DNA of 64,000 bases from Arthrobacter alpinus (lineage in GTDB: Bacteria > Actinomycetota > Actinomycetes > Actinomycetales > Micrococcaceae), in NCBI RefSeq assembly GCF_900105965.1, contig NZ_FNTV01000002.1, forward strand, positions 248,001 to 312,000, read 5' to 3'. The notes beneath the pieces were generated by a model, which searched no databases, was not told where the DNA came from, and worked only from the letters and a program-made list of their open reading frames with translations. Made by a program: the position numbers and the translations under genes. Positions 5,082-50,415 of the stretch are shown here, piece by piece (within the stretch, counting starts at the first letter, position 1; every line of letters starts with the position of its first letter).

Positions 5082-5354
5082 TCAGCCCTTGCCCTTCACC
5101 GTCGATAACTTCTCAGCCTTGGTACGCATCCCTGTCCGCAACACACCCTTAGGGAGCCCGGACCATGACCGTCCACCGTTGTGCTTGCGCTGCAGGCGAC
5201 GCAACTCACGCAGGGTCGCAGCCACGAGAAGGTCATTGACGGAAGAATAGCCCTCCAACGCGCCGGTAGCTTGAAACGCTGCCCGCACCTGGTCTGCCGT
5301 CTCTTCTGGCACGAGGAAGCTAAAGCTAGGTGATTTGCGGGGCTTCACAGTCAT
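5082..5354 (-). CDS. small ParB-C/ribbon-helix-helix-like protein
   Basis: 90 residues. A short N-terminal strand region (SPSFSFLVPEETADQVRAAF) is followed by GYSSVNDLLVAATLRELRRL and QRKHNGG. This strand-helix-helix layout, with a conserved HNGG-like end, resembles the C-terminal centromere-binding domain of small actinobacterial plasmid ParB proteins. A paralog lies at 58287-58520 (GYRCLNDLLVEAIHQEIRRL). It lies 3 bases before the methylase remnant and downstream of ssb. A role in plasmid partition or as a DNA-binding regulator is inferred, not shown. Confidence 0.5.
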   Translation of the reverse strand: MTVKPRKSPSFSFLVPEETADQVRAAFQATGALEGYSSVNDLLVAATLRELRRLQRKHNGGRSWSGLPKGVLRTGMRTKAEKLSTVKGKG

Positions 5355-5478
5355 GGGTGTTCCTCGATAAGATAGTGGTGGTGGCTACACGTACGAGCGC
5401 AGCCACCACCAATCATGGCAGTTAGAACGGTGGTTCGGACTGGTCCGGGCCACTCCCCCACCCACCATTGCTCGGCTC

Positions 5479-6003
5479 CTAAGGAATGGCCCATGGGTCG
5501 TTGGCGGTGGCCGGCGAGGATGGTGCATACCCTCCCCCGCCTTGGGCGCCGGCCCCGGCAGCTTGGTAACCCGCATATCCCTGCCCACCAGCGGACGGCG
5601 ATACTGCCGGTGCCGCTTGTCCGCCTTGGTTACTTGAGCGTTGGGTGCGGTTGACCTTCGCGTTGGCGTACCGCAATGAGGGGCCAATTTCATCGACTTC
5701 AAGCTCCATCACGGTGCGCTTCTCGCCTTCCTTAGTGTCATAGCTCCGGGACTTCAACCGTCCCGAAACGATCACGCGGGTGCCCTTGGTCAGGGACTCG
5801 GCCACGTTCTCGGCCGCTTCACGCCAGATCGATGCCCGAAGGAACAGTGTTTCTCCGTCTTTCCACTCGTTCGATTGACTATCAAAGGTTCTCGGTGTGG
5901 AGGCAATGGTGAAGTTCGCGACCGCTGAACCGCTCGGCGTGAATCGGAGTTCGGGGTCTGAGGTTAGGTTTCCAATGACAGTAATGGTGGTTTCGCCAGC
6001 CAT
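5479..6003 (-). CDS. ssb: single-stranded DNA-binding protein, tail cut by amber codon
   Basis: 174 residues. The OB-fold domain (about 1-115) begins with [20 protein letters not shown] and contains [18 protein letters not shown] and [20 protein letters not shown], clear Ssb motifs. It binds single-stranded DNA during replication and conjugation. A Gly/Gln/Ala-rich linker follows. The protein ends DPWAIP at a TAG (5479), but the same frame then continues with EPSNGGWGSGPDQSEPPF and a TAA at 5422. That is the normal acidic protein-binding tip of Ssb, so one stop codon removes it. ATG 6003 is chosen because the family starts there; the frame is open further upstream over nrdH. Confidence 0.9.
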
Positions 6004-6770: not shown

Positions 6771-7367
6771 ATGTGTCTTCGTTCTTCGTCGCCAGGGGGC
6801 GTCCGTTTTCTTGCTTCAATCCGGCAAGGGAATAGTCTCAATTCTTCCGCCCGAGCCTGCGGCATCCATAAGGAAGTCGGCTACCGCTGGGTGCATGAAA
6901 GTTATCTGCAGCGGCCCAAAGAAGGAACCAGTCCCGCGCAGGCAACGCCGTCCAATGGATTCACCACTGCCAGGCTCCCTGCATGGGAAGCGGCGGTCGG
7001 TGAGGTTACGGGCCGCCACCATCTGAAAGTCAACGTCGAAGTTGAATCCGTGTTCTGGGAGGTCTTTGATCGTGGACAAAGTCCTACCCAGTCAGCTGTG
7101 GTGGCCGTAGCTGGCCGTTCCATTGCGTATCGGTGGATCCAAGCTCGGTTCCATCAGTTCCAGAGTCAAAAGATCACCTTGAAGCGATGCCAGAGGCTTC
7201 TGCGGCTAAGGGTTCGAATCGCACCGCAACGCCGCCCTCGTAAAGTCACGGTGCCACCCCGTCGGCTCCGCCAGATCATCAAAGATTGGCCCCTCTGGAG
7301 CCGGTACGGCCACTTCTATGCCAGTGAGAATATCATTCCGATAAGGGACCACTCTGGTGTCGAATAG
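6771..7367 (+). CDS. DNA-binding protein with two helix-turn-helix segments
   Basis: 198 residues. Two similar segments of about 35 residues each look like helix-turn-helix units: RFLASIRQGNSLNSSARACG leading into GYRWVHESYL, and VFWEVFDRGQSPTQSAVVAV leading into AYRWIQARF. Such tandem units occur in transposase N-termini and in actinobacterial plasmid proteins, but no catalytic domain follows; the last 60 residues are Arg-rich. ATG 6771 follows AAGGTG. It could be a regulator or the leftover of a transposase; I cannot choose. Confidence 0.45.
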   Translation: MCLRSSSPGGVRFLASIRQGNSLNSSARACGIHKEVGYRWVHESYLQRPKEGTSPAQATPSNGFTTARLPAWEAAVGEVTGRHHLKVNVEVESVFWEVFDRGQSPTQSAVVAVAGRSIAYRWIQARFHQFQSQKITLKRCQRLLRLRVRIAPQRRPRKVTVPPRRLRQIIKDWPLWSRYGHFYASENIIPIRDHSGVE

Positions 7368-8621: not shown

Positions 8622-9524
8622 TTAGCTAATCTCCTACTGGTTGACGGCTGACCTGCAGCGAATTCAATTTGCGCTGAATCTCGTGGATGGTGGCGAATCG
8701 TTATGGTCACCTCAACTCTTCTTCGATGGATTCTTGACACGGTTAGGCCCGTAGTCTTGGACAAGTCTGCGCCGTGTCGGGATGAGTTCGCTCTGCTCTA
8801 TATCAATCGTGGGGCGTTCGGGGCCCCAATAAGCGCATCACTGCGCCCTGCCGCACTGTCATAGGGGAAAGTTTCGTCGGTTCCATTGGCCGAACCGTCA
8901 GTATTTGGCTAGTTTTCCAGCTAGAAGACGAGTGGACAGCTCGACGTACTTGCGGTGGGGCCCGACTATTTCTTGAACTGGGGCCGGTGCTGCCCCGGAG
9001 CAAAGCTGCTCGTCGTGGACTTAGCACACGACATCTATGGAAATCGACTAGTAATCGAAAATAAATATCAGAAAATTTCTGTCGATGGCATCTTTTAGTA
9101 GCGAACATTGTGCAGTGACTAGCGGAATTTTTCATTATGAAAAAATGATCGTTTCCACAAAATGTTTCTACTTCCATTAACTATAGTCGTGTTCACGTCT
9201 GAGAAGTTGAATTCCGCTACTCAATATATGCCATTGACATAGATTGAGTAGTTACTGCCACGACAGAGGCGCTTACGCTGGCGGACTAAGATCTCATGGG
9301 TTTGCGAAGGAACCGACCAGGTACTCGCGCACTGAAGGAGGTCCCCCAGCTGTCGATGAGTAGATGATTGAGTATGGAACAAGTCGAATACTCAGTCAGG
9401 GGTCGATGGTAATTGGGTCAGAAATTCATTGATGACGCGAATTGCGGACCGGCACCATCGTGAGACTTACCTAGTTTCACGGCAGTGGGCTGAGCTGGTT
9501 GCAATTTTCGTCTGGACTCGACGG
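8622..9524. other. 900-base non-coding stretch
   Basis: No protein-like frame. A 124-codon minus-strand frame at 8803-9177 has no recognisable pattern and is probably chance. The right half holds the repeated TGAGTA/TACTCA motifs listed separately and is otherwise AT-rich around 9040-9240, as expected for a promoter region driving the 8621 gene. Confidence 0.5.
9217..9394. promoter_or_regulatory. cluster of TGAGTA/TACTCA motifs, two inverted pairs
   Basis: CTACTCAAT at 9217-9225 is the exact complement of ATTGAGTAG at 9243-9251. TGAGTAT at 9369-9375 pairs with ATACTCA at 9388-9394, and another TGAGTA is at 9357. The same hexamer forms a regular array at 20782-20852. A shared regulator, possibly the LuxR protein encoded beside it, is an inference. 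Confidence 0.5.
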
Positions 9525-12188
9525 CTATTCTGCCGGTTGCCACTCGGTGTCAAGATCGCTTCGGCTTGCGAGTCCCAATTTGCGCAGAGTTCGAAACATG
9601 TGATTCTCAACGGTTCGCACGCTGAGGAAGAGGCGGGTGGCTATTTCCCGGTTGCTTAGCCCGGCTCGGGCTAAAAGCGCGACTTCGTGCTCTCGTTCGC
9701 TGAGACTACTGTCTATAGGCAGTTCTCTCTTGTCGGCAGAGAGCGTTTTAGCTATTTCTCCAAATAATGCGATGCGTTCGTCCAAGGTCAGTGATAGTTT
9801 TCCGCTGCCGAGACGTGACGCTTCGATCGCTTTGATCGCCGTTGCTGCCAAGCCGGGTGGTATTGGAACAGTTGCAGCTTCAAGTGCGATTTTGATTGGT
9901 AGTTCTTGTACCCTTGCACAGGCGATATGTATGTTTAGGATCATTTCAAAGTGGGGCGCATCCGTCTTGTCTAAGATCTCTTGAACAACCGCCGCTTGAC
10001 GTGGCTTTAGGCGACCTTGATAGGCGGTCCAGTAGGTGAAGGCCGTCGCCAAGTGGCCCTTCGCAACGGCTGCCGTGCCAGATGACCAGAGCAGTTCATC
10101 AGCTTCAACGCTATCGCCCTCCGCGTGCATAATCGCTGCTTTGGCCAGGTTGATGAGCGTTCCTAGGACAGGCCTGAAAAGGACTGGGTATTTTTCGAGA
10201 TCCCGGAGCAGAGTCCGGGCGAGTTCGGTCTGACCATTTTGGGCTTGAATAACTGCGCCCAAGGCCAAGACGCGAGAATAGTTAAAGTTGAAGGGGCCGG
10301 GATTTCCAAGCCTGATCGAGGTGCTTATGGCCCGCCATGCTGTCGCTGTTTTCCCTTGGGTGAATAGTGCCTCCGCGAGCCCCAGTGCATGTATTCGGAT
10401 TCCATTGCTATCCAGCTGGTCGTATGCCTGTTCAAGATGACGCCTAGACCAGCGTTCCGCGTCATTTAGGCGTCCAAGCATGATCAGGGCATCGCTGCGG
10501 ATATAGTCCAGTGCTTGGGCAGTCTGCTTTCTTGAGTGATCCACAGGTTGCGCGTCGATGACTTCCAGGGCTTCCTCGGGTAGGCCCATTTCTAACTTGA
10601 GGTATGTTTTTAGAAGCGTCGACCATTCCAACGGAAAGTCACCTTGAACGCCGAATACGAGGTCTTTCACTAGGCCAGGACTAAGCGGCCGTTCATCATT
10701 GGTGAGGCAAACGAGAACCCAGAGTTTTTCCGTGATCTCGGCGTGCTTCCCGATGTCTTTGCGAGCCCTAGCGAGGAAATCCTCGATTTGCGTGGCGCTC
10801 TGCCCTGTCCAGACGCGCCATTGAAACTCATATACCTTAAACTGGGAGCACACATCCATGGAGTCATTTTCGCCGAATTTGGTTCCATGGAATATTTCTT
10901 CCAGTCGTTGGGCAACCGGGCTCCCCAGAAGAGTTTCCAGATACTGGCATGCGTTGTCGACACTTGGATCTTCATGCCAAGTGGCTCGTTTGGATGCTTG
11001 TTGGACAGCGACACGCTCGTTGAGCAGTCCGGTAAGTTCTGCAGACCATTTCCAGTATCCATCGACATCCGAGCGCTGTTGGGAACGCAGACGCTCTAGG
11101 ATGTCATCTGTGTACTCTGGTGGAAGTACGAATTCCTCCCCGAAGACATGTTGCACATGGGTCCTGAGCGTATGCCGGCGCGGCTCTGTGAGTCTGTCAC
11201 GCAAGGCGCGAGAAAGCGCTGGAGGTGACACGCTGACATAGTCATCGGAAGTCCGACCTCGGTGCCATGCGATTCTTTCCAGAGTGCTCAGTTCCTGCAA
11301 CGTTTCGCTGTCCACGAGTTTTGTCACGTCACTGGATCGCAGGGATCCAGTCCACGACAATAGCTCCAACGCTTCAAATGCCGGATGGCTAATTCGGCTT
11401 GTCAAACTGTGCGCAATGGCAGCGTGAGGGGAGTCTTCTATGGATCCAATCTCAGTCCACAGCCCGTTGCGGATGGCCAGAGCCCGACTCCACTGACCTG
11501 CATCAATGAGCGCGCCGGCAGTTTTGGGATTTCCAGCGGACTGGGTCACTATGGACGCGATCAAAGCAGCATCTGGTACCCCGCCGAGGCGTTCGGTAAT
11601 CAGTCCTGCCACCCCCCAATATCCCAACGGCGCGATCACGACCTCAGCAGGTGCCCTGATACCCAAGAGTGCCAATGCAGGTTGACCCGTCTCGTTCGCT
11701 GACCTGCCCAGCCCTCGCCCACTGGAGGCTATTAATACGGTGTCCGTATTTGCCAGGATGCGTTCCACTAACACCACCGACGCTACGTCAAGGCAATCGA
11801 TATCATCAATAAGCAATAGATTGCTAAGTCCCCGTAGTTCCTGACTGAATCTTCGGGTGATGCTGGCAAGGTCCGCACGTTGTGGCCGGTCTCTATAAAA
11901 GAGCTCATGAGACAGGAAAGGAGCAAGCGGTGCGGCGGGCTGCACTCTAATTCCAGAAACAGTCACTACATTGATGTTTCGGTCACGTGACTCTTGGGCC
12001 AATTTGCCCAGTACGGTCGACTTCCCAGATCCTTCGTCCCCGACGACAAGGACGTCTCTGCCCAGGTTGACCCAATCCGTAGCAGCAACGATTGCGGGAT
12101 CCAAATTGCTACTCATCTGAGCGCCAGCCACTTCTGCCCACTCCAGGGCTTGGTCCAGTGGAGCTCGATCATTCACGAATAGATTCAT
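9525..12188 (-). CDS. large ATP-binding LuxR-family regulator (LAL type)
   Basis: 887 residues from ATG 12188; the frame is open to 12305, so the protein may be up to 926 residues. It has an N-terminal STAND-type ATPase domain with Walker A GDEGSGKST (about 50-58) and Walker B LLLIDDIDCL. A long helical-repeat middle of TPR character contains ALGLAEALFTQGKTATAWRA and ALGAVIQAQNGQTELARTLL. The C-terminal LuxR helix-turn-helix reads LSEREHEVALLARAGLSNRE followed by IATRLFLSVRTVENHM. Such proteins hydrolyse ATP and activate transcription when a signal binds the middle part. It is the last gene of the surface-structure locus and faces the same way, so it probably controls that locus. Confidence 0.85.
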   Translation of the reverse strand: MNLFVNDRAPLDQALEWAEVAGAQMSSNLDPAIVAATDWVNLGRDVLVVGDEGSGKSTVLGKLAQESRDRNINVVTVSGIRVQPAAPLAPFLSHELFYRDRPQRADLASITRRFSQELRGLSNLLLIDDIDCLDVASVVLVERILANTDTVLIASSGRGLGRSANETGQPALALLGIRAPAEVVIAPLGYWGVAGLITERLGGVPDAALIASIVTQSAGNPKTAGALIDAGQWSRALAIRNGLWTEIGSIEDSPHAAIAHSLTSRISHPAFEALELLSWTGSLRSSDVTKLVDSETLQELSTLERIAWHRGRTSDDYVSVSPPALSRALRDRLTEPRRHTLRTHVQHVFGEEFVLPPEYTDDILERLRSQQRSDVDGYWKWSAELTGLLNERVAVQQASKRATWHEDPSVDNACQYLETLLGSPVAQRLEEIFHGTKFGENDSMDVCSQFKVYEFQWRVWTGQSATQIEDFLARARKDIGKHAEITEKLWVLVCLTNDERPLSPGLVKDLVFGVQGDFPLEWSTLLKTYLKLEMGLPEEALEVIDAQPVDHSRKQTAQALDYIRSDALIMLGRLNDAERWSRRHLEQAYDQLDSNGIRIHALGLAEALFTQGKTATAWRAISTSIRLGNPGPFNFNYSRVLALGAVIQAQNGQTELARTLLRDLEKYPVLFRPVLGTLINLAKAAIMHAEGDSVEADELLWSSGTAAVAKGHLATAFTYWTAYQGRLKPRQAAVVQEILDKTDAPHFEMILNIHIACARVQELPIKIALEAATVPIPPGLAATAIKAIEASRLGSGKLSLTLDERIALFGEIAKTLSADKRELPIDSSLSEREHEVALLARAGLSNREIATRLFLSVRTVENHMFRTLRKLGLASRSDLDTEWQPAE

Positions 12189-12436: not shown

Positions 12437-13432
12437 TTAGGTTTCTGTGGTGGGAGCAGTCTGAGTCAAGTAGCACCGTTCGCACTGGATCTTTCGCGCA
12501 CCGTGGGAATCGGAGTGTTTGACCCAGTGGTCCTTACGCTTGATTGCTTCTTCGCAATCATCGCACCAGCGTCGTTGGCGCCGAATTGCCAGCAGCAGCC
12601 AGCCGAATAGTCCGGTTAGGACCGCGATGCCCAGCAATGCCAAAAGTCCCGCGCTACCTGTTATGGGCAATTTTGGGAGTACTGGAGTAGATGTGTCCCC
12701 AGTCAACTTAACATCAACGTCGAAGTTCAACACGGTGGAAGCTGCTCCCAATGCCCTGGACGTTTCCACATTCTTTGCCATTTCGAAGCCGATGGAAACA
12801 GCAACCTGTTCACCCCTAAGTAAGGAGATTTCGGCTACGTTCACTGTGCCTTTGGGAACAAGAACAGAAAACTGTTCTTGCCCAGTTACCCCTTTGACAT
12901 TCCAAAAAAGTGTCACATCCTCGGCCAGACCGGGGTTCAGTGCGCCAGCAGGGACTATTTCAGCAAAGTCGATTTCGACTGTGAGAACACCCTGGGAAGG
13001 TCCATCGTTCACGATGTTCAGAGAACGCACCACATGATCACCGGGTGAGACAGTCCGGTCGCCGATGAATGAGCCCTCGGCGCGAGCATATTCGCCCCCG
13101 GACCAGTCGAGGTTTATCGCAGGCCCATCCCACATAGCCTTTATGGCCGTGGCCTCAACATTTACCGCGTCGATGAACTCCCCCGTTCCTCGAATGCCTG
13201 GTTGTCCAGCATCCTTGTCCGAATCCAATTCACTCGTTACCCTGTTGACGGTTTGACTGCCGGTGAACGGCAGAGCATTCGCGGCCACCAAACCGACCGC
13301 GCAGCCGATAAGTAAGAAGCTTGCGACAATCCAAACTAAGGCCCGCCCCCGCCCGGACAATCCGTGCCGCGAATCGAGATAGAGGGTTTCGGTTTGCCTG
13401 ACCGAATCTCTGGGAATTGGCTGACGGCGCAC
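12437..13432 (-). CDS. LPxTG surface protein with cytoplasmic zinc-ribbon tail
   Basis: 331 residues. One N-terminal membrane helix (about 31-51) is followed directly by LPFTG (54-58). An extracellular beta-rich domain comes next, then LPKLPITG (LPITG at 255-259), a second membrane helix (about 261-283) and the basic stop RRQRR. Unlike a usual sortase substrate, the chain continues with CDDC (290-293) and CERC (317-320) spaced by a His-rich loop, which should form a small zinc ribbon inside the cell. The domain SPGDHVVRSLNIVNDGPSQG resembles SipW-type exported subunits. It follows the signal peptidase gene by 2 bases. It could be a cell-wall anchor or an outside-in sensor. Confidence 0.7.
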   Translation of the reverse strand: MRRQPIPRDSVRQTETLYLDSRHGLSGRGRALVWIVASFLLIGCAVGLVAANALPFTGSQTVNRVTSELDSDKDAGQPGIRGTGEFIDAVNVEATAIKAMWDGPAINLDWSGGEYARAEGSFIGDRTVSPGDHVVRSLNIVNDGPSQGVLTVEIDFAEIVPAGALNPGLAEDVTLFWNVKGVTGQEQFSVLVPKGTVNVAEISLLRGEQVAVSIGFEMAKNVETSRALGAASTVLNFDVDVKLTGDTSTPVLPKLPITGSAGLLALLGIAVLTGLFGWLLLAIRRQRRWCDDCEEAIKRKDHWVKHSDSHGARKIQCERCYLTQTAPTTET

Positions 13433-13434: not shown

Positions 13435-14364
13435 TCAGGCCTCGAATCGGTTGGTAATGAGAGGGACAGGGAGGCCCTCGTTTAGGGTGGACGGGTGGGG
13501 TGCGTTTGGAACATGCACCGGGAAGTCCAAGAGTGTGACGGATTCACTGTAGATGGTGGCCAATGCGCCTCGTTGGTGAGCGAAGGCCAGTTCACGCTCC
13601 CGAAGCTCAAGGTCACGTTCCCGAACGGCAAGTTCACGCTCCCGTAGATCACGTTCGCCCTCATTGGCGCCCCAATCCGCGTCCTCACCAGTACCGGCGG
13701 TAACATCGGGTGTACCTTTGAACGGATCCCTGGCAGCTACGTCTGCTGGGGAACCTGCAGTAGTGCGTGGAACTGTCATGACGGTGGTGCGGGGGGACCG
13801 GATGGCGCCCCATAGTCCCCAGGCGATGACGATCGCGGCGCCGGTGAACAGAAGAATTTGGGTGTTTTCTCCGGCCCATTGCCGCACCCAGCCGAGCTGG
13901 GGCACGCCAAACATGAATTGCCCTCGTACTTGGGCGGGGGAGACGGGTGCATCGACGGATGAGTTGCTGTCACCTTGGGTGACGAGGCGGCAGTGCGTAC
14001 CGTCGTCGAATGTGCCGATGGTCTTGCCCACAACGCGGTGGGTGATCAAGGTGGGTTCATTCGGTTTGGGAAAAAAGGTCACGATGGAGCCCACGGACAC
14101 GTCCGCGCAGACCCCTGCTTCGTCGAGGCCCTTCACCACCACGATGTCCCCAGGGGAAAATGTAGGCTCCATTGAGCCGGAGAGCACAGTCAGTGAATCA
14201 CCGCCCAGCATGCGGGGCACCACAACGAGCGCGAGGAGAGCACCGACGGCAAGGACAGCTAGGGCTGTTGAGAAGGCGCGCCCAGCGATGCGCCACGGCG
14301 ACTCGAACCAGAGGCCCCGCGAATTGCGGCGTGCGCCCTGCTGTGCGATGCGACGGATATCCAT
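13435..14364 (-). CDS. SipW-like signal peptidase I with charged repeat tail
   Basis: 309 residues. A membrane helix at about 32-52 leads to VLSGSMEPTFSPGDIVVV (nucleophile Ser64) and LITHRVVG (His109). His in place of the usual Lys marks the ER/SipW class, which cuts alternate-type signal peptides such as those of the four exported proteins encoded just upstream. A second helix lies near 165-185. The tail then has RERELAVRERDLELRERELA, a heptad-like repeat suited to a coiled coil, which ordinary SipW proteins lack. ATG 14364 has AAGGAAGAG before it; the GTG at 14382 is less likely. Confidence 0.88.
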   Translation of the reverse strand: MDIRRIAQQGARRNSRGLWFESPWRIAGRAFSTALAVLAVGALLALVVVPRMLGGDSLTVLSGSMEPTFSPGDIVVVKGLDEAGVCADVSVGSIVTFFPKPNEPTLITHRVVGKTIGTFDDGTHCRLVTQGDSNSSVDAPVSPAQVRGQFMFGVPQLGWVRQWAGENTQILLFTGAAIVIAWGLWGAIRSPRTTVMTVPRTTAGSPADVAARDPFKGTPDVTAGTGEDADWGANEGERDLRERELAVRERDLELRERELAFAHQRGALATIYSESVTLLDFPVHVPNAPHPSTLNEGLPVPLITNRFEA

Positions 14365-14435
14365 GGCTCTCTTCCTTCTCACTCGTGCGCGGGGAGCGCA
14401 TCCTCATACTGGTCTCTGGCGGTGTTGCGGACGGT

Positions 14436-14472: not shown

Positions 14473-14493
14473 AGGGGCGCGTGTCCTTGGGTG

Positions 14494-15312
14494 TTAGTTG
14501 AACTGAACGCCGGTGTCGCGTACCTGCTCCAGGGACACGGTGAGGTCCGCCAGTGTGTCGGCCAGCTTTACGTCCGTCCGGTCAGAGACTGTGCCATCGG
14601 TAGCCTGGTAGCGGAAGTCACCGTTGGCGTCGTTGTAGAACGATGCGTAGATGACCACGTTGAGGTCGGCCGTTGTCTTCGGCATGCCGAAGACTGCGCT
14701 CTGCGCGGCAACACCAGTGACGACCGTGGCTGTGTCACCGAGGATGCCGTTGCTTGCGTCTTCCAGTCCTGCGTCCTGGCCGGTGCCAGGAGCTGAGAGG
14801 TATAGCAATGGAGCGTCAGCATCGGCCGGCAGGGCTGTCTCACTCACCAGTAGTTGATCGCCGTAGTAGACCTCGTAGCTGTAGCTGATGCCAGAAATAG
14901 CGGAAGTGACTTGATCTAGGCCGTCTACTCCCAGGCGTGCCACGAGGTTGTCGCCGTCAAGGGTGGCCGTGGCCTCGAAGGATGCTGCCAGCTTGTCACC
15001 GGGGGCAATGCGCCAGGTATTGACATCATCGACCAAGTGGCCCAGCTGCGATCCGTCACTGGCACCGACAGTGTCCACCGCATCTTTGCGGTCATTGGAC
15101 ACATCCCAGAATGAGGTCTCGGCAAGCTGGGTAATGTTCAAGTCACCGGCGGTGATCGTTCCGCCAGAGAAAGTGTCCTGAGCTGACCACAAAGCGAATG
15201 TTGATCCGCCGGCAACCAACACGACGGCACCCGCAGCCGCCCAAATGAGGCCCTTGCGGCGCTTGTTCTCAGTCACAACAATGATCTGATCGTGGTTAGG
15301 CATGGAAGCCAT
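14494..15312 (-). CDS. SipW-type alternate-signal exported protein, copy 2
   Basis: 272 residues, identical to the protein at 15378-16196. The N-terminus has the alternate signal: basic NKRRKG, a hydrophobic core GLIWAAAGAVVLVAGGSTFA, then LWSAQDTFSGGTITAGDLNI, the signature of TasA/RER_14450-like exported proteins that a SipW peptidase cuts. The rest is a beta-sandwich with the end VSLEQVRDTGVQFN. Such proteins form surface fibres or biofilm matrix in other bacteria. AGGAG stands seven bases before ATG 15312. It is the gene nearest the signal peptidase. Confidence 0.85.
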   Translation of the reverse strand: MASMPNHDQIIVVTENKRRKGLIWAAAGAVVLVAGGSTFALWSAQDTFSGGTITAGDLNITQLAETSFWDVSNDRKDAVDTVGASDGSQLGHLVDDVNTWRIAPGDKLAASFEATATLDGDNLVARLGVDGLDQVTSAISGISYSYEVYYGDQLLVSETALPADADAPLLYLSAPGTGQDAGLEDASNGILGDTATVVTGVAAQSAVFGMPKTTADLNVVIYASFYNDANGDFRYQATDGTVSDRTDVKLADTLADLTVSLEQVRDTGVQFN

Positions 15313-15377
15313 AATAAAACTCCTAATTTTTTGGGGATGGTGGTGTTGCCAAAGGTTGGGGCGCGTGCCCTTGGGTG

Positions 15378-16196
15378 TTAGTTGAACTGAACGCCGGTGT
15401 CGCGTACCTGCTCCAGGGACACGGTGAGGTCCGCCAGTGTGTCGGCCAGCTTTACGTCCGTCCGGTCAGAGACTGTGCCATCGGTAGCCTGGTAGCGGAA
15501 GTCACCGTTGGCGTCGTTGTAGAACGATGCGTAGATGACCACGTTGAGGTCGGCCGTTGTCTTCGGCATGCCGAAGACTGCGCTCTGCGCGGCAACACCA
15601 GTGACGACCGTGGCTGTGTCACCGAGGATGCCGTTGCTTGCGTCTTCCAGTCCTGCGTCCTGGCCGGTGCCAGGAGCTGAGAGGTATAGCAATGGAGCGT
15701 CAGCATCGGCCGGCAGGGCTGTCTCACTCACCAGTAGTTGATCGCCGTAGTAGACCTCGTAGCTGTAGCTGATGCCAGAAATAGCGGAAGTGACTTGATC
15801 TAGGCCGTCTACTCCCAGGCGTGCCACGAGGTTGTCGCCGTCAAGGGTGGCCGTGGCCTCGAAGGATGCTGCCAGCTTGTCACCGGGGGCAATGCGCCAG
15901 GTATTGACATCATCGACCAAGTGGCCCAGCTGCGATCCGTCACTGGCACCGACAGTGTCCACCGCATCTTTGCGGTCATTGGACACATCCCAGAATGAGG
16001 TCTCGGCAAGCTGGGTAATGTTCAAGTCACCGGCGGTGATCGTTCCGCCAGAGAAAGTGTCCTGAGCTGACCACAAAGCGAATGTTGATCCGCCGGCAAC
16101 CAACACGACGGCACCCGCAGCCGCCCAAATGAGGCCCTTGCGGCGCTTGTTCTCAGTCACAACAATGATCTGATCGTGGTTAGGCATGGAAGCCAT
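15378..16196 (-). CDS. SipW-type alternate-signal exported protein, copy 1
   Basis: 272 residues, same product as the gene at 14494-15312. The doubled gene would raise the dose of a structural subunit without change in sequence. No drift has occurred, so the duplication is recent, is kept equal by gene conversion, or is an assembly artefact. The ribosome site AGGAG and the start are the same as in the other copy. It lies 96 bases after the gene ending at 16292. Confidence 0.85.
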   Translation of the reverse strand: MASMPNHDQIIVVTENKRRKGLIWAAAGAVVLVAGGSTFALWSAQDTFSGGTITAGDLNITQLAETSFWDVSNDRKDAVDTVGASDGSQLGHLVDDVNTWRIAPGDKLAASFEATATLDGDNLVARLGVDGLDQVTSAISGISYSYEVYYGDQLLVSETALPADADAPLLYLSAPGTGQDAGLEDASNGILGDTATVVTGVAAQSAVFGMPKTTADLNVVIYASFYNDANGDFRYQATDGTVSDRTDVKLADTLADLTVSLEQVRDTGVQFN

Positions 16197-16291
16197 AATA
16201 AAACTCCTAATTAGATGTGGGCGCCAAAAACTTGGAGCGCTCGGGGTTGGTTATCTTCGCCATTCTGGGCCGAAGTTTTGGTCTGTGTAGG

Positions 16292-17200: not shown

Positions 17201-17877
17201 GATCCCCTCCTCGCACTGGCGGATGCTTCCCCGCCGCGAACCTGATCTAAGCCGACTTTGATGCCGTCCACCGTCCAAGAACCCAGATCAAGAAGCGGTT
17301 CCTGCTCCGTCCAGCGGTAGTCGCCGTGAACGTTGACCGTGACCACCACCGTCCAATCCGTGCTGACTCCCTCGTTGCTGCCGATCAATCCGGGCAGCGT
17401 AACCGGCTCCCCGAGCTCGGCTCCTCCGGTTGCCGGGGCGAGCTGCTCGCCCTGCGCGTTCTCGACCCGGTAACTTGCTGTGATGAGTCCTGAGGAAAGC
17501 TCTTGCGAAGCCGCACTCCCAACATCAACCAAGAGTGCCGCATTCAGGTTCTCCCCCTGCAGAGTTGTGGTGATGGGTACCACGAATTCGATGACATCAC
17601 CCGGCATTGAAACGAACGGTTCCGATGCGGTGTCCAGGCTCCCGTAGGCCGGGGCGGTGACCCCCGGAGTGATCTGGTGCCAGGTTCCGGTGCCGCGCTC
17701 AAGGTTCAAATCTCCAGCCGTGACGTGACCGCCGGAGAAGCCGGTCTGTGCCTGCCACAAAGCCCAGGTGGCCCCACCGATCAGCAGGGCAGACACGGCC
17801 ACGGTCGATGCACCTACGATGAACTGGCGTCGTCGGCCCGTGGCACGTGCGGCAACTCGTGTTGCTGCCGGGCTCAC
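17197..17877 (-). CDS. SipW-type alternate-signal exported protein
   Basis: 226 residues. After a basic N-terminus (ARATGRRRQF) and hydrophobic core comes ATWALWQAQTGFSGGHVTAG DLNL, the same signature as in the duplicated genes (LWSAQDTFSGGTITAGDLNI). The domain ends WTVDGIKVGLDQVRGG, comparable to VSLEQVRDTG of its relatives. The GTG start overlaps the stop of the adhesin gene (GTGA) and the stop overlaps the next start (ATGA), so all three genes are translationally coupled. Confidence 0.82.
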   Translation of the reverse strand: MSPAATRVAARATGRRRQFIVGASTVAVSALLIGGATWALWQAQTGFSGGHVTAGDLNLERGTGTWHQITPGVTAPAYGSLDTASEPFVSMPGDVIEFVVPITTTLQGENLNAALLVDVGSAASQELSSGLITASYRVENAQGEQLAPATGGAELGEPVTLPGLIGSNEGVSTDWTVVVTVNVHGDYRWTEQEPLLDLGSWTVDGIKVGLDQVRGGEASASARRGS

Positions 17878-20699
17878 TTCCCGCCTCCCACTGTCGTGTC
17901 GCCCGGAATCAACGCGCCACAGGCGGACAGCATGGAACTCTGCCCTATGGGCAGGGCCCCGATTGACCCGATCACGCCGTTCGTACCCAGCCTGGTGTCG
18001 GAGTCGGTGACTGCGACGTCAGTCAGGGCCGTGGCCCAGTCGTCCGAGGAAATGTTCTTCACCGTGTAAACGAAACAGACCGATTGGCCGTCTGTGAGAC
18101 GGGTGCCCGACAGTGCCTCGTCGCCCGTGGCCATGATCCGCTCGGGCGTGGAGCTGTCACTCACCTCCACGAACGCCCGCTTGGTAATCTGGATCGAGGG
18201 GTCGGTGGAGAAGAGCTTGACCTGCACCGACCTCACCACCAGGCCGTCGTAGTTGACGTCATCGGAGGAGAGCGCGTGGGAGACCACAGCTTTGGTGTTC
18301 GCCGGGACGTCACCTGCCGAGGCGGTTGCCCTGACCTTGCCCGAGGTGGTCTCTCCTGCACCGATCACAGAATCGCCTGTGGAGAGCTTCACTCCGATCT
18401 GCACGCCAGCAGTGTCCACAGTCGAGGCGAAACGCAACTCTGAACTCGGCGACGGTGCGCCGGCACCCAGCTGGAAGAAGAAATCCTTGCCGCTCGGTTC
18501 GCCCTTGACCAGGGTAAAGGAGTCAGGTTTCACCGACACGGGGTTGGAGAAGGTGACATTGTTGTCCGTACTTGTCGCGGAGGCGCGGTTGGTCAGACCT
18601 CCTGAGCCTATGACCTTTCCAGCAGCAACAGTGGCCGTGACGACGGCGGAGTCATCCACACGGGCGACCACATCAAATTCGCGATTGGCGCTCCCCTCGA
18701 TGGGAGTCACTGAGACTGAGCGGGGATTCAGGCGGGCAGCATCTATGGTTGCAGCTGTGCCCACGGCACTCACACCGACAACGGCAGCCGTCACTGATTC
18801 CGGGTTCAGAGGCAGCGAAGAGACAATCTTGTAGTGTAAATCGCGCGCCACGGTGGGGTCGTTCTGATCAGCAGCTTGGTTGATGGTGAGCTCCGGGCGA
18901 CAGTTTCCGCTGAAACCAACGAGACGGGAATACTGCGAGGACTGCTTGGAGCCGTGTGCAATCGTCTGTACACGCAGGTAACCGCTGGCAGCACCGGTGT
19001 CTTCGTTTACGATCGTGACGTTGTGGCTGCCACCAACCTCCGTGGTCGGAAACGACTGCGGGCCAACCGGCAAGTTGAGGGCAAGCTTCGCGCCTGTGCC
19101 AGTGACAGCCTCGGCGCGGCCTAGGTAGACTTCCGCTGTACGATCTGCGGTCCAATAGACATCCAGATCTACAGTGCTGGCCGGGAGGGGAGCTGTGGTC
19201 GGTGCCAACACATCCAGCGTGGCCACACAGGTGCTGGTCTCCGGAGACAGCGAGCTGACTGTTGGAATGGTTTGGGCGGGCATGGCACCTGCGAGAACCT
19301 GCGCGTTCGCCGCAGGGAACCAAGTGTTTACCAGACCATTGGCGTTGAAGTCGTTATCGAGAAGGAGCGAGGTGCGGTCGCGGGTTTCCTCCGCTGTTCC
19401 CGGACGGGTCTGGCTTGCGCTGCGGGCGCCGAAGGTATTCTTCTGGACCTTCACGTCCCCTGTGTTGATCAGGTAGACCGAGGTAAAGGAGTAGCCGTCA
19501 AAATAGTTATCCTCGATGCTAAGCTCACCCGCACTCCCGCTCGTCGTGTTGCCGTTCCACGCTACGGCGTACGTCTGGCCCGACGTGGCGCGCACGAACT
19601 CATTGCCGGAGATGCGGTTGCTGCCAGCAAGAGGACCATAAGGCAAAGTGATGAATGCATTGTTCGCGCCTGTTCCAGAGCCCTGCATGTTAATGAAGCT
19701 GTTGTTGGAGATGTTGATGTTGGAGGCGCGCACGCTCGTGGCAGCGGTGCCGCGGCTGAAGGCGAGGCCGTCACGGGAGGTCAAGTTGGAAACGGATGAG
19801 TTGGTGAACGTGAAGCCGTTCAGCACCGAGCTCTGGCTGCGCGGATAGAACTGGATGATGTCGGTCTGACATCCTGACCCGTTGGACGAGTTACAGGTGG
19901 TGCCGGTCGGATAGGTGATCTTGACGTTGTCGATTGTGACGTTCTCGATCGGGGTGTTGTTCTGTGCGTTGAAGAGGAATAGAGCCGTCAGGTTGGCATA
20001 GTAGTAGAAGCCTTGAAGGCGGTAGTTCTGCACCGTAATGTTCTTGGCTCCCTCACGCAACACCATAAACCGCTCCGGGAAATAGTTCGTGTCAGTCGAG
20101 GTTGCGCCGCCGTCGAGCAGGAATCCGTTGGCGTTTGGCCCGGCCACGATCGAGGTCTCGCCCGAAAGAATGTGCGACATGTTCAAGAAGCTAATGTCTG
20201 GACCATTGACGTGGAACACGGCCGCGATGGTGTCCGTACTGGCCGTTATTGTCACCTGGTTCTTGAAGTCGATGGTGACCGGTGCAGTGACCACGAAGTG
20301 GGCACCGGTATCCCCGACAGTCGTCAAGGTTGTCGTGGACATCCAAGTGCTGGTAGTGGCGACCGGGTTGATGTTACCCGCGAAACCGTCCGCGACCGTG
20401 ATCAAGATCGAATCCTTCGACAGATTCAGCGCGTTGGATTCCTCCAAGGCAGCACGCAGCGTGCAGGTCCCAGCCGCCGTGGCACAAGCCCCATCCCCAA
20501 CTTTGGCATCACGAGCATTAACGGACGCATCCAAGGAATTGACAGTAAAAGTGTGAGTGACTGCCTGCGCACTCGTGGCAACGACAATCGGTGCAACCAG
20601 CGCTATCGCCGCAGTAAAGACAAGAAGCCGAAGACGCCTAAAACCACGTACACGACGGCGTGAGAGCGCCCGGCCCCCAACGTTCTTACGATGGCCCAT
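17874..20699 (-). CDS. large secreted CSLREA/beta-helix adhesin-like protein
   Basis: 941 residues. It has a Sec signal peptide (FRRLRLLVFTAAIALVAPIV to about residue 46), then FTVNSLDASVNARDAKVGDG and CTLRAALEESNAL, the CSLREA-type motif that starts many bacterial surface beta-helix proteins. Residues about 130-470 show repeated short NxS/NN turns of a parallel beta-helix. Residues about 500-930 are beta-sandwich segments, with a DUF11-like end (VCFVYTVKNISSDDWATALT). No LPxTG is present, so anchoring must come from its partners. It is first in the operon and lies downstream of the TACTCA array at 20782-20852. Likely the main adhesin of the structure. Confidence 0.75.
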   Translation of the reverse strand: MGHRKNVGGRALSRRRVRGFRRLRLLVFTAAIALVAPIVVATSAQAVTHTFTVNSLDASVNARDAKVGDGACATAAGTCTLRAALEESNALNLSKDSILITVADGFAGNINPVATTSTWMSTTTLTTVGDTGAHFVVTAPVTIDFKNQVTITASTDTIAAVFHVNGPDISFLNMSHILSGETSIVAGPNANGFLLDGGATSTDTNYFPERFMVLREGAKNITVQNYRLQGFYYYANLTALFLFNAQNNTPIENVTIDNVKITYPTGTTCNSSNGSGCQTDIIQFYPRSQSSVLNGFTFTNSSVSNLTSRDGLAFSRGTAATSVRASNINISNNSFINMQGSGTGANNAFITLPYGPLAGSNRISGNEFVRATSGQTYAVAWNGNTTSGSAGELSIEDNYFDGYSFTSVYLINTGDVKVQKNTFGARSASQTRPGTAEETRDRTSLLLDNDFNANGLVNTWFPAANAQVLAGAMPAQTIPTVSSLSPETSTCVATLDVLAPTTAPLPASTVDLDVYWTADRTAEVYLGRAEAVTGTGAKLALNLPVGPQSFPTTEVGGSHNVTIVNEDTGAASGYLRVQTIAHGSKQSSQYSRLVGFSGNCRPELTINQAADQNDPTVARDLHYKIVSSLPLNPESVTAAVVGVSAVGTAATIDAARLNPRSVSVTPIEGSANREFDVVARVDDSAVVTATVAAGKVIGSGGLTNRASATSTDNNVTFSNPVSVKPDSFTLVKGEPSGKDFFFQLGAGAPSPSSELRFASTVDTAGVQIGVKLSTGDSVIGAGETTSGKVRATASAGDVPANTKAVVSHALSSDDVNYDGLVVRSVQVKLFSTDPSIQITKRAFVEVSDSSTPERIMATGDEALSGTRLTDGQSVCFVYTVKNISSDDWATALTDVAVTDSDTRLGTNGVIGSIGALPIGQSSMLSACGALIPGDTTVGGGK

Positions 20700-20781
20700 A
20701 TGTTACATCCCCGATAATCCGCTTGATCTGCTTGGCTGACATTCCAAGTGAATCAAACAGATTTCCCGCGATAGCTACCGG

Positions 20782-20852
20782 TGAGTAGCTCCGTACAAAT
20801 ACTGAGTACTGCCACCCACCACAGTGAGTAGTAAGGGGAAATTCCTTGAGTA
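20782..20852. promoter_or_regulatory. four TGAGTA repeats spaced 21-22 bp upstream of the surface operon
   Basis: TGAGTA occurs at 20782, 20803, 20825 and 20847, spacings 21, 22 and 22, i.e. two helical turns each, so all sites face one side of the DNA. The array ends 83 bases before the adhesin start. Regular direct sites fit an oligomeric activator such as a MalT/LAL-type LuxR protein. Confidence 0.65.
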
Positions 20853-20859
20853 GTCACGA

Positions 20860-21235
20860 TGATGAGACTGGCGGATACCCGAAGAATCAGGTGAACAGGG
20901 GGGTCTTGGTAGTAATGGGGCGAAATTACATGATAAGCCACTGATGCTGTTCTGTTGGGTAGGTTTGGTTCATGCCAGTCTAGTTTCTGAGTGATGAGCA
21001 AGGGGAGGCGTTCGGGCGGTTCCTGGGCGGGTATTTCTGGAAACGGGGAACGGACACTGGAAGGCACCGAGCGACCGACCGGCGCCACAGGGCGGACCGC
21101 ACGAGCGATGCATCGACTGGGCACGGGGTGCGAAGGGGATCGCGTGAATTGGCGGATGAAAATCAGATTCTTTCGCTCTTTTGGGTTTAAATCCAATTGG
21201 TAGCGTAACTCTGCTCGCTCGGATAGGCTAGCGAG
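20860..21235. other. divergent intergenic region
   Basis: Holds the far-upstream region of the surface operon and the promoter of the small secreted protein at 21236. A 188-codon minus frame here covers the start of that gene and looks like chance. Confidence 0.35.
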
Positions 21236-21490
21236 ATGAATATTAAAAAGGCAGTATTGGCGACAGCAATTGCGGCAGCATGCCTTACCGGAGGGATTGT
21301 GGGCGCGGCTCCTGCTCAAGCCGCGAAGTCCTATTATCAGATCAAGTACTATCCTTCACTAGATCAATGCAAAGCCGCCTACGTCAGCCATTCGAATGCC
21401 GGATATGACACCCGCGCGGGCTGCGCCTACAAGCTAAAGCCTGCATACAACGGTGGCCCAACCTCTTACGGTTTCGGAATCATGCATTAA
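21236..21490 (+). CDS. small secreted protein
   Basis: 84 residues with a clear Sec signal peptide (MNIKKAVLATAIAAACLTGG, cleavage after AQA near residue 29). The mature part of about 55 residues is rich in Tyr and Lys and has two Cys (DQCKAAYVS, RAGCAYKL) that could form a disulphide. Not recognised. The size and Cys pair recall the small secreted protein at 26589-26840. Tyr-rich small exported peptides can be surface or antagonism factors; no evidence decides. Confidence 0.6.
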   Translation: MNIKKAVLATAIAAACLTGGIVGAAPAQAAKSYYQIKYYPSLDQCKAAYVSHSNAGYDTRAGCAYKLKPAYNGGPTSYGFGIMH

Positions 21491-42914: not shown

Positions 42915-45359
42915 CTAGCGCTTCAGTGTAATGGTTTTCTGGTGGCCGTGGTTGCCTGCCAGACTGAACTCGAGCGTCAACGGCTTCGTGGAGACCACGG
43001 TGACGCCCGGATCGGCGGCGGCGATTCCGGACCACTCCTTCCCCGTCACGGGCACCGTCAGGCGTATGGACGCCTGCGTGCGCGAAGGGTCGGCCACGGT
43101 GATGGAAAGTTTCCGCCCGTCCTCGTGCACGGCAACGGAGCAGGGGCCGGATGCGGTAAAACCCTTGGCCGAGGATGCGGCGTAGAAATTACCCAGGGTC
43201 AGGGAATCGCCGGGCACGCTGAGCAGCTGGGAATCCTTGGTGTTGACCAGCACTGTGACCCTCGGCTTGGCCTGGTTCTTGAAGGTGTCCGAGTGGTCGG
43301 CCGCCGGCAGGACCATGTAGGCGTACCCCTGGTTGACGGGATCGGTGCCGTGCGAGGCGGTGATGGTGACATAGTCCTGGGTCACGGGCGCGTCCTTTCC
43401 GCCGGTGTCGGCACCGGAGTTGATGGCACGCCAGTTTCCGGTGCGGCGGACGACGGACACGGTGGCCTCTCCCGTGCCGTTTTCCGAGGGCAGGAGGACA
43501 AATCCCGCATAGCCCTCCACATGGACCGACCCGGACGCCGTGCGGCTTGCCCCGACGGCCAGCCGGACGTTGGTATGGTCAATGCGCACATCCGGCGTCT
43601 GCCCCGTGGCGTAAGAGCGGTTTTCCAGGGTGGTCAGGACCTCCGCTCCTCCCGTGCCGGTAATGCCCGCTCCGAGGCACACGAGGGTGTCGTCAAGGAA
43701 GAACCAGGACTTCTTCGCGGCCAGCGACTTGTTGTAGTTCAGGTGGTCCATGCCCACCACACCCCAGCGGGCATCCACGCTCAACCCGCCGGCGAACGGT
43801 TGGAAGGCGCCCGGGATGCCGGTACCGGCCCCGGAGGAACCGGTGGGCCGCGGCGTGAGGTTCACGGTGGTTCCGGGCAGGCGGTACGGGTCCACCGTGG
43901 GCCAGAAGTCGCTGCTGAACTGGGATCTGTCCGTGCGGTTGTAGATATATGTCATGCCGTCGCCCTGGTACCAGCCGAAGTTGTTCTCGTCGTTGCCCCA
44001 TTCGTAGCGGCCCACCCTGTTAGAGGACGTGCTGACGGTTGAACCCCACGCCGGGCGGTGGTGGACCAGGCGGTCCTGATCGGCAAACATCCGCGTGTAC
44101 ACGGGCGCGGGAGCTGCAACGACGGCGGCATTGTTCAAGACGTCCAGGGCCAGCAGCGAGCGGGCCAAGCGCTGGGTGGGATGCCCCACCATGGCCTGGT
44201 CGGTGCAGCGTTGCAGCCAGCCCTTGGCCAATGCCAGGAAGCGCGAGGTGTACGGTTCCCCGGCACCGGGAGCCATCAGCAGGACGGCCCCAATCAACGC
44301 GAAGCCGTCCACGTAGTCCGGCTCGGCCTGGCGGGAGACGGCGCGGCCGCGAATGGTGTCCATGATCCGGCCATCCCACACGAACGGGGCAAAGGTGTTC
44401 TCCACGGCATCCAGGAGCGTTTCGCGCGCCGGGTCTGTGACCTCCCAGCTGCTGCCGCCCACCATGTTGATGATTTCGGCGACACCGGCCATCGCCACCA
44501 CACCGTACGTTCCCGCATAGGGCAGCTGCCCGTGCTGGATGAACGAGCCGTCGGCATAGAAGCCGTCGCCGGAAGTCACCAGCTTGAACAGGCTGTTCTT
44601 GCCCCCGCCGGCAACGTCGCTCAACGCATCCCGACCCATCGCAACGTCTCCGGCGTTGGCGTCGAGGATGCCGCGCATGGCGCAGGCCAGGGACTTGTCC
44701 ACCCGGTTGGCACCGGTCTCGGCCAGGCTGGTGGCCCGACCGCGCCAGCCGGGGTTGGGGGCAAACCAGCGGGCCGCGGCGAGCAGCGAGGTGCGCAAGG
44801 GGGCCGGCACGACGTCGTACATCAGCGTCAGGATGTCGACCACCTTGCGGGGGTTGCCGATTTCCCAGAACCACCAGTTTCCGGCTGCCTTCATGCCGGG
44901 CTTGTACGCGGTGTCCGAGAGCAGCTGCAGACCGGAGATGATGTCTGCGGCCAGCTGCGGGTCCCCGGCCTGGGCTGTACCGGGGACGGCGTACCCCATG
45001 GCCAGGTCGAAGAGGCGGTTGAAGTGAAGGGCCATGTTGCTGGTAGCGTTCGCGCTTTGGCCGATGCCGGTGAGCGGGATGTCGGCCCAGAGGCTGGTGC
45101 GGCCCGCGGAGGTGTCCATGGACTCCCACGTGGCGGAGGTTTTGGCCACAATCTGTGCCAGTTGTGCGCTGAGCTCGGGGACGGCTGAGGCGTCGATGCC
45201 TCCGGTCAATATGGCCCGGCGGCGCACAATCAGCTCCGTCATTGAGGCCGGGGTGGCCGCGAAACCGGTGCCCGCGGCCGAGCTGAGGAGGGCGCCGGCC
45301 ACTGCCGCCGAACCGGCCGCGCGGAAGAGGGTGCGCCTGGAAATATCTGAAATAGCCAT
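42915..45359 (-). CDS. polysaccharide lyase family 8 enzyme, Tat-exported
   Basis: 814 residues. The signal SDISRRTLFRAAGSAAVAGA has the twin-arginine motif, so it is exported folded. The alpha/alpha toroid has the PL8 catalytic features NWWFWEIGNPRK (Asn), DGSFIQHGQLPYAGTYG (His and Tyr) and later RGRAVSR (Arg). The central beta-sandwich has NENNFGWYQGDGMTYIYN and the C-terminal sheet ends at GHQKTITLKR. PL8 enzymes cut hyaluronan, chondroitin or xanthan by beta-elimination; which one cannot be told. ATG 45359 is chosen over the upstream start. It lies next to a 2-hydroxyacid dehydrogenase and ABC transporter in one direction. Confidence 0.88.
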   Translation of the reverse strand: MAISDISRRTLFRAAGSAAVAGALLSSAAGTGFAATPASMTELIVRRRAILTGGIDASAVPELSAQLAQIVAKTSATWESMDTSAGRTSLWADIPLTGIGQSANATSNMALHFNRLFDLAMGYAVPGTAQAGDPQLAADIISGLQLLSDTAYKPGMKAAGNWWFWEIGNPRKVVDILTLMYDVVPAPLRTSLLAAARWFAPNPGWRGRATSLAETGANRVDKSLACAMRGILDANAGDVAMGRDALSDVAGGGKNSLFKLVTSGDGFYADGSFIQHGQLPYAGTYGVVAMAGVAEIINMVGGSSWEVTDPARETLLDAVENTFAPFVWDGRIMDTIRGRAVSRQAEPDYVDGFALIGAVLLMAPGAGEPYTSRFLALAKGWLQRCTDQAMVGHPTQRLARSLLALDVLNNAAVVAAPAPVYTRMFADQDRLVHHRPAWGSTVSTSSNRVGRYEWGNDENNFGWYQGDGMTYIYNRTDRSQFSSDFWPTVDPYRLPGTTVNLTPRPTGSSGAGTGIPGAFQPFAGGLSVDARWGVVGMDHLNYNKSLAAKKSWFFLDDTLVCLGAGITGTGGAEVLTTLENRSYATGQTPDVRIDHTNVRLAVGASRTASGSVHVEGYAGFVLLPSENGTGEATVSVVRRTGNWRAINSGADTGGKDAPVTQDYVTITASHGTDPVNQGYAYMVLPAADHSDTFKNQAKPRVTVLVNTKDSQLLSVPGDSLTLGNFYAASSAKGFTASGPCSVAVHEDGRKLSITVADPSRTQASIRLTVPVTGKEWSGIAAADPGVTVVSTKPLTLEFSLAGNHGHQKTITLKR

Positions 45360-45401
45360 TACTTTGTGCCTTTCACTTCGAGGATGGTGCATCGGAAACT
45401 T

Positions 45402-48265: not shown

Positions 48266-48376
48266 GGGGTTCCCTTCGTTGAGGGGCACGACGGCGGGTG
48301 GCCGAAAGATGCCCCGGGTCTGCCGCCGGGGAGCCGCGCGAAGCGCAGACCCTGCCCGGCGGCAGTGGTGGATTGA

Positions 48377-49672: not shown

Positions 49673-50415
49673 GAATGACTCCCTTGTCGTTGTGTGGGTA
49701 GTCACATCTTCTAAGGTGGGTTGGAGCGCCGTCAACTTAAACGAAAGAATTTCATAAGAGATGAAGGAAACGAAATATTGAGGGTCTCTAGTCAACGATT
49801 TTAGGGGATCAATGGCGGCTACAGCGCCTAGTGATCAGCCGTCTTGACAGCTGTCCCTGTGTCGGAAATCCGTTCCAGGAGCACCAGGAGCAGTGGGATC
49901 GCTTGGTGTCCCACGCTTGACGTGAAGGGTGGGCGTCGAAGCGAGTGGATGGCGGCAAGTCAGCGCAAAGACGCCCATCCTATGAATGGACGTGATCGAA
50001 TCCAGCATGGTGGCCGGCTCGGCGGACGACGCGGCCGCACGTCGCTCGGCAGCGCTTTTGGCCGTGGATCCAGACCGCTGTCTGGGCATGGCTGAGTTAG
50101 TGACTCCTCGAGGTGATCATATGAGCAATTTTGATTCGTGACCGTCGACTTGTTTCCCGTGGAGCGGCTTAAAGCGTGGTCGGTTCACAGTGAAAGTGAT
50201 TTCTCCTTCAGTGAGGATGATGAAGATTTCGTTCTTTGCCACGTGCTGTGCGTGGACGCCAGGTGTCCCCGCACAGCACGGACCACGGTCACCAAACTCA
50301 AGCGCTTGGGTCTCGAGGTCATCTTTCCGGCCTGCCTGGCCCGCTGTTTTGGGTCATAGCACCGGCACAGGACTGAGCCAGCGCTGGGGGTTTGGTGGCG
50401 TTTCAGGGCGCAAAG
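49673..50415. other. promoter region and unassigned stretch
   Basis: TTCAT AAGAG ATGAA at 49751-49765 is a small inverted repeat before the transporter operon and could bind a regulator. TGATCATATGAG near 50115 recalls the palindrome at 55726. No gene is convincing between 49800 and 50415. Confidence 0.4.

Follow-up and report, generated by a model that had tools for sequence, protein, structure and literature searches.

Regularly spaced direct repeats upstream of a SipW/TasA-like export operon in Arthrobacter alpinus, a candidate operator for a LAL-type LuxR regulator

Four copies of the hexamer TGAGTA lie at regular distances in front of an apparent export operon of Arthrobacter alpinus (assembly GCF_900105965.1), and a gene for a large ATP-binding LuxR-type (LAL) regulator is encoded in the same locus. 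This raises the questions of whether the hexamers form an operator and, if so, which protein reads it. The window analysed here is the whole stretch of 64,000 nucleotides from position 248,001 to 312,000 of contig NZ_FNTV01000002.1. On its + strand, TGAGTA starts at 20782, 20803, 20825, and 20847, reproducing exactly the positions and the steps of 21, 22, and 22 bp that had been reported from inspection of the sequence. Because the operon is located on the - strand, each site is TACTCA when read along the genes; the steps are then 22, 22, and 21 bp, and the sites conform to STACTCA (Table 1). They are asymmetric, are arranged in direct repeat, and are placed between the 941-aa gene and a divergent ORF of 84 aa (21236, + strand), at about 82-88 bp from the first codon of the operon and 384 bp from the ORF.

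The hexamer alone shows no clear enrichment: counting both strands, the window has 19 matches, against an average of 13.07 (sd 3.49) in 100 shuffles, six of which attain 19. Its clustering is another matter: four hexamers occur within 71 bp, whereas none of 300 sequences from a first-order Markov model has more than two. Likewise, three same-strand pairs 20-23 bp apart are found in the array, compared with no more than one in 300 first-order Markov sequences. In the whole 4.62-Mb genome, the pattern TGAGTA-N14-17-TGAGTA occurs four times, three times within the array and once elsewhere, and the reversed control pattern of the spaced pair occurs twice. A scan of positions 20690-21240 detected neither an inverted pair nor a direct-repeat family of at least 10 nt, and an operator of the long inverted-pair type was rejected on the former ground. 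By eye, a 4-bp CTAC/GTAG inverted pair flanks site 4 (20775-20788), and no second heptamer is seen 2 bp past any of the four sites. A consensus search near the array gave no sigma-70-like promoter (0.3 expected in shuffles).

Table 1. Features of the window (positions are those of the window; bit scores refer to the named family models)
Feature	Position	Strand	Remark
Second TGAGTA/TACTCA cluster, five hexamers	9218..9394	9218-, 9245+, 9357+, 9369+, 9389-	3' of the LAL gene
LAL-type LuxR regulator, 926 aa	9525..12305	-	recognition helix SVRTVENHMFR
331-aa protein, no family match	12437..13432	-	LPITG, then a hydrophobic stretch (by eye)
SipW-like signal peptidase I	13435..14382	-	TIGR02228, 76.6 bits (cut-off 51.85)
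272-aa TIGR04089/TIGR04088 protein, copy B	14494..15312	-	family scan run on this copy
272-aa TIGR04089/TIGR04088 protein, copy A	15378..16196	-	same protein sequence as copy B
328-aa protein, weak TIGR04089	16292..17278	-	21.2 bits, under the cut-off of 60
226-aa protein, alternate-type signal peptide family TIGR04089	17197..17877	-	66.0 bits (cut-off 60)
First operon gene, 941 aa, no Pfam/NCBIfam match	17874..20699	-	secreted and beta-helix-like by eye only
Array site 4, TACTCA (context CTACTCACC)	20782..20787	-	-88 from the start codon
Array site 3, TACTCA (context GTACTCAGT)	20803..20808	-	-109 from the start codon
Array site 2, TACTCA (context CTACTCACT)	20825..20830	-	-131 from the start codon
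Array site 1, TACTCA (context CTACTCAAG)	20847..20852	-	-153 from the start codon

The operon contains a SipW-like signal peptidase adjoining proteins with SipW-type signal peptides, as in SipW-dependent export operons; TIGR04089 scores of 70.5 and 66.0 bits (cut-off 60) and a TIGR04088 score of 29.7 (cut-off 19) were obtained within it, and the SipW model NF046067 reaches 58.9 bits on the peptidase, under its cut-off of 190. From these family matches, the gene set appears to be a SipW-type export operon with a LAL gene of its own, and it looks like one that makes surface fibres. The two identical 272-aa proteins arise from a perfect tandem duplication of 844 bp (14485-15328 and 15369-16212; period 884 bp), and the relative loci contain one clear counterpart each where any was found by tblastn. 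The window is located on the second contig (384,619 bp), which is likely to be an Arthrobacter-like plasmid, because 31% of a 24-kb query from this contig matches an A. alpinus plasmid at 94.1% identity. Elsewhere in the window, 42915-49795 carries genes for a polysaccharide lyase 8, a hydroxyacid dehydrogenase, an ABC transporter, and a solute-binding protein; as far as 46000, to which it was searched, this segment is ~94% identical to an A. alpinus plasmid.

The presence of a LAL-type regulator in the same locus, as originally stated, is supported. The 926-aa protein has the size of this class (~900 aa) and a C-terminal LuxR/GerE helix-turn-helix (GerE, 53.1 bits, cut-off 23.5, residues 866-918), and its N-terminal part matches AAA_16 (26.7 bits, cut-off 32.6, E 9e-6) and AAA_22 (24.6 bits, cut-off 27, E 3e-5) just under the curated cut-offs. 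The strings GDEGSGKS and LLLIDDID were found in the translation by eye. It is not MalT itself, scoring 20 bits with the curated MalT model NF003420 (cut-off 537), and no SARP-type domain is present among its Pfam matches. The helix-turn-helix matches the DevR, VraR, and GerE chains, and the Asn of its VENH motif aligns, by counting in the DevR alignment, with DevR Asn183, which we take to be a DNA-contacting residue. Ten homologues of this regulator obtained by a protein search (P0002-P0011; 32-77% identical) all contain VENH as well. A search of the genome itself with the LAL query gave 19 matches, the gene itself counted and several lying within the same genes. On its main contig, several LAL-type genes stand in a row (L054, G000:C1:2176001-2195000).

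An operon of the same kind, usually with a linked LAL gene, is also present in Microbacterium. Three Microbacterium records contain relatives with 56-62% identity, and the protein was matched in 18 of 366 Microbacterium genomes. In the family of the window, its own genome was the only one of 295 with a match, no member being found in the 294 others. In the family to which the Microbacterium relative belongs, four of 299 genomes matched, namely the already known G119 and G163 and the remote G430 and G474, and a first set of 118 relatives yielded three matches, the genome itself and two remote ones. No plasmid record matched the 941-aa protein; the LAL query matched 24 of them, none over more than 80% of its length, and the intergenic DNA matched two, over 10-13%. 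The test set comprised 17 operons from 15 of the 18 Microbacterium genomes, with the remote-match genomes G304, G405, and G929 set aside and the remote homologues L014-L019 and L023-L030 kept outside the test sets; no array was seen in the upstream or neighbouring DNA of L014-L017, with the intergenic region of L016 inspected by eye. The counterpart of the 941-aa gene in Microbacterium thalli (L020, 10001-12847, the same gene as in L040) contains one in-frame TAG, and intact relatives exist.

By tblastn, all six non-regulator genes were found in 15 of the 17 operons. L098 (G962) retains only the first three and shares its genome with a second operon (L097), and the contig of L100 ends past the first gene, with the last operon gene and the LAL gene on another contig (L101). 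The LAL gene, placed by tblastn positions, is linked to the operon in 13 of the 17, once across two contigs. It follows the last operon gene in the window, L020/L056, L021, L057, L058, L094, L095, and L101 (for L100), is located upstream and codirectional in L059, and is divergent with a shared intergenic region in L061, L062, L064, L096, and L097. The linked regulators share only about 23-25% identity with that of the window. In three Microbacterium genomes, the gene that best matches the LAL query is in each case located by the operon, in the third one beside the last gene on the other contig. No linked LAL gene was found in L063, L098, and L099, yet array-like chains are present there. In L060, a 142-aa LAL remnant with its helix-turn-helix and VENH motif kept (5305-5730) lies directly upstream of an operon with the six other genes.

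Arrays are also found before the orthologous first gene of the relatives. In gene direction, L021 (M. hominis) has CTACGCAC-21-CTACGGAG-21-CTACGGCG-22-CTACCCAA, L100 has TTACGGAT-21-CTACGCAC-21-CTACGGCG-22-CTACCGAA, L057 has GTACCGAG-21-CTACCCGG-22-CTACGGGA, and L056 has CTACGGAG-22-CTACGGAG. The array of L058 is TACGGA-21-CACGTA-21-TACTTC-22-TACGTA, that of L060 CACTCA-22-TACCCA-22-CACTCA, that of L063 TACCTA-22-CACTCT-22-CACTCA, that of L062 TACGTA-21-CACTGA-22-TGCTGA, and that of L094 CACCCA-21-CACTCA, and L059 carries two copies of TACTCACC 44 bp apart with a poor match in between. NAC cores are kept at 22/22 bp in L060, L098, and L099. In many of the 17 operons, sites of the NAC type (CTACGG.., CACTCA/TACCCA, and TACGTA/CACTGA) stand at this spacing; information content is low about 11 positions past the site start in both site sets, group C loci carry additional GTAC sites with different steps (42, 15, and 46), and no clear array was found in L095. 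The original prediction expected the same array in relatives carrying the 941-residue gene and named the loss of hexamer or spacing as the finding that would speak against it. The 21-22-bp steps, two helical turns on one face, do recur, but the letters vary between loci: strict conservation of TGAGTA has to be rejected, the hexamer being conserved only in part and not outside operons with one type of regulator. The TGAGTA array of the window is real, but the recurring unit is a NAC core, often CTAC, at 21-22 bp. Spacing is therefore the conserved property, the hexamer drifts, and some relatives are without a clear array.

The recurrence of the spacing was supported by several counts, in which the STAC-pair, k-mer-ranking, and TACTCA-probe sets consisted of relatives without the window. 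STAC pairs at 21 and 22 bp within 300 bp upstream numbered nine in seven core relatives, as against a shuffle mean of 0.09, and five in a 10-locus set, as against 0.15 (0 of 2,000 shuffles in either case); they stem from five of the seven and three of the 10 loci, respectively (CTAC counts). As the STAC core had been picked by eye, a ranking of 4-mers and tests with a TACTCA probe were run to remove that choice. By observed/expected ratio at 21 and 22 bp, CTAC ranks first of 256 4-mers and CTA and TAC rank first of 64 3-mers; in raw counts, GC-rich 3-mers rank higher. A strict chain scan covered 22 loci, the window among them (901,048 bases with both strands counted, and with some overlap). 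It found 57 STAC chains of at least two sites and four of at least three (window, L021, L022, and L057), and six YACYCA chains of at least two sites and two of at least three (window and L060), so that every strict chain of three or more sites falls in this promoter. With the TACTCA probe alone, a three-site score of at least 12 was reached by 11 of the 17 relatives, close kin included, compared with 2.2% of 20,000 random 300-bp pieces cut from the same loci, promoters included; L056, L057, L058, L095, and L097 score 11 and L061 scores 10. The mean chain score over eight lineages peaks at spacings of 21-22 bp (z = 8.8 for three sites and 10.9 for four), with 8.8 and 7.5 at the overlapping 22-23 setting. 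Other spacings from 12 to 41 give z values of 1.7 to 6.5, the highest at 32, and this baseline, raised at nearly all spacings, probably reflects upstream composition.

We favour the reading, with a probability of roughly two in three, that the array is the operator of the SipW/TasA-like export operon and is bound head-to-tail on one helix face by a MalT-like, multimerizing LAL activator. As described in PMC4381067, MalT activates transcription and multimerizes, and binds its boxes cooperatively upon multimerization; the LAL regulator is accordingly taken to multimerize on activation. The STAND-type LAL protein would multimerize on a signal, the multimer would bind the four asymmetric STACTCA sites cooperatively with one DNA-binding domain per two turns, and the bound complex would recruit RNA polymerase before the first operon gene. 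The array, its spacing, the recurrence of that spacing in many relatives, the restriction of strict chains of at least three sites to this promoter within the DNA scanned, and the linkage of a LAL gene to most of the operons are observed; the identity of the binder, its multimerization, and its activating effect are inferred.

The classes of site and regulator offer a further indication. Of the linked regulators, those of the window, L059, and L094 as well as the L060 remnant carry VENH, and those of eleven operons carry VESH. ACTCA occurs within 420 bp upstream of all four operons with VENH regulators (one of them the remnant) and of two of the 11 VESH operons (L058 and L096). L098 and L099, which are close kin of L060 with no linked LAL gene, stand outside the count of four; among the operons with no linked LAL gene, L099 and L063 have one ACTCA each and L098 has none. 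The change between N and S in the helix occupies a single branch of the LAL tree, and because it is one evolutionary change the association is suggestive only: site class follows LAL class, as would fit recognition by the LAL protein without proving it. A more specific reading, which we consider possible but put forward tentatively, is that the two-turn geometry rather than the sequence is the conserved feature, the array acting as a ruler of the subunit spacing of a STAND/LAL multimer while the letters drift with the recognition helix. One DNA-binding domain would then be set down every 21-22 bp on one helix face, with VENH reading ACTCA and VESH reading CTACG-type sites.

LAL genes located away from the operon were examined at four loci (L114-L117), in which no operon gene was found (none matched in the 18 kb of L114). 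The strict chain scan detected no array in any of them. In L114 (G320), an unlinked LAL gene of the VENH class is directly followed on its 3' side by three copies of GTACTCAG (10266-10352; steps of 20 and 23 bp). In L117, about 6800-6880 and upstream of a VESH LAL gene, TACGCA-21-CACTGA-22-TGCTGG aligns with the array of L062 and scores 12; L116 also scores 12 with unaligned sites, so that the score alone does not discriminate. The conserved islands GCCGAGCTTGCGTAC, GCAGTA, and ACTGAGA remain in L116 and L117, where the LAL genes are of the divergent type with no adjoining operon. The negative strict scan of the unlinked loci and the weakness of the arrays there lower the confidence in the LAL-operator reading.

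That a different regulator of the host reads the array, for instance a SARP, a response regulator of the NarL/DevR type, or some other protein that binds direct repeats, with the LAL gene being operon cargo, seems unlikely. Direct repeats are bound by SARPs (PMC10972967) and by BldC (PMC5859096). TACTCA agrees with positions 1-6 of the NarL heptamer TACYYMT (PMC4886647), which would allow a different GerE-fold protein to read the array. The 19 genomic matches to the LAL query and the array-like chains of L063, L098, and L099 that lack a linked LAL gene point in the same direction. Against this stand the linkage in 13 of 17 operons, the correspondence of site class and LAL class, though by one change, and the absence of an inverted pair of at least 10 nt at the array. 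It seems quite improbable that the LAL protein, when bound to the array, acts as a repressor of the operon or chiefly controls its own expression. The shared intergenic region with divergent LAL genes in L061, L062, L064, L096, and L097, the aligned array beside the unlinked LAL gene of L117, and the GTACTCAG triplet just 3' of one in L114 would suit such a role, but the LAL gene follows the last operon gene in the window, L020, L021, L057, L058, L094, and L095, no chain above control level was found directly before the LAL gene of the window, and MalT is described as an activator (PMC4381067). The divergent 84-residue ORF faces the same intergenic region and might be served by the array instead of the operon; this is very improbable, since the array is far closer to the operon (about 82 bp against 384 bp), no chain above control level occurs in 20901-21236 on the strand of the ORF, and the arrays of the relatives sit before the orthologous first gene. 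A functionless chance cluster or decaying tandem repeat is scarcely credible: the window shows no clear excess of the hexamer by itself, but the Markov, STAC-pair, 4-mer-ranking, chain-scan, and TACTCA-probe results all speak against chance, no direct-repeat family of at least 10 nt is present in 20690-21240, and the array recurs in relatives.

The putative LAL operator can be compared with several known systems. The MalT box is GGGGA-like, a sequence that the STACTCA sites of the window do not match, and MalT acts on a different kind of target from the window operon. The boxes of the Escherichia coli maltose regulon resemble the array in combining a LAL/STAND regulator with direct-repeat sites, but consist of two decanucleotides in direct repeat as presented in PMC6099782, whereas up to four NAC-type sites at 21-22 bp are found here. 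The same paper describes TpdR of Rhodococcus jostii, an activator of the LAL class from an actinobacterium, for which the tpdABC promoter likewise has two upstream direct repeats; these are, however, 15-nt repeats with a 13-nt gap and a 28-bp period (motif TnnAAnnGCGGAnTC). At milA, several direct repeats jointly serve the binding of the LuxR-family activator MilO, but as three 11-bp repeats with 2-nt gaps and a 13-bp period (TGTCNNNCGGT; PMC11784345). SARP heptamers are likewise short head-to-tail repeats, classically with an 11-bp unit and often overlapping the -35 region (PMC10972967), unlike the period of 21-22 bp. TACTCA fits TACYYM of the NarL/NarP heptamer (PMC4886647), but NarL heptamers form an inverted pair (PMC6099782), whereas the window array consists of direct repeats. 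With respect to the genes controlled, the matrix-fibre operon of Bacillus is alike in having a SipW-like signal peptidase beside families with SipW-type signal peptides. The Bacillus SipW/TasA operon involves other protein families, and the 941-aa first gene, the LPITG protein, and the LAL regulator are extra here.

Among the matches listed in a literature search that covered few subscription journals, there was no LAL operator with a 21-22-bp period, and a full-text search of the same coverage gave nothing combining SipW, Microbacterium, and LuxR. To our knowledge, the placement of multimeric STAND activators on DNA is known for few proteins. If spacing is conserved in this promoter family as the sites change, the distance between protomers could be read directly from it, and it would offer a ready test set for changes of specificity in the recognition helices of GerE-fold proteins. 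For actinobacterial SipW/TasA-like operons, the LAL protein and the array also provide a first candidate pair of regulator and operator.

Two further elements were observed in these loci. A shared palindrome-like sequence, GTGGYCTGACCAC, precedes the start codon in L056, L094, and L095 and is possibly another operator. In the window, the second hexamer cluster (Table 1) comprises five hexamers in 177 bp, compared with a maximum of three in 300 Markov sequences; it is off the 21-22-bp period, and its segment 9217-9251 forms an inverted repeat.
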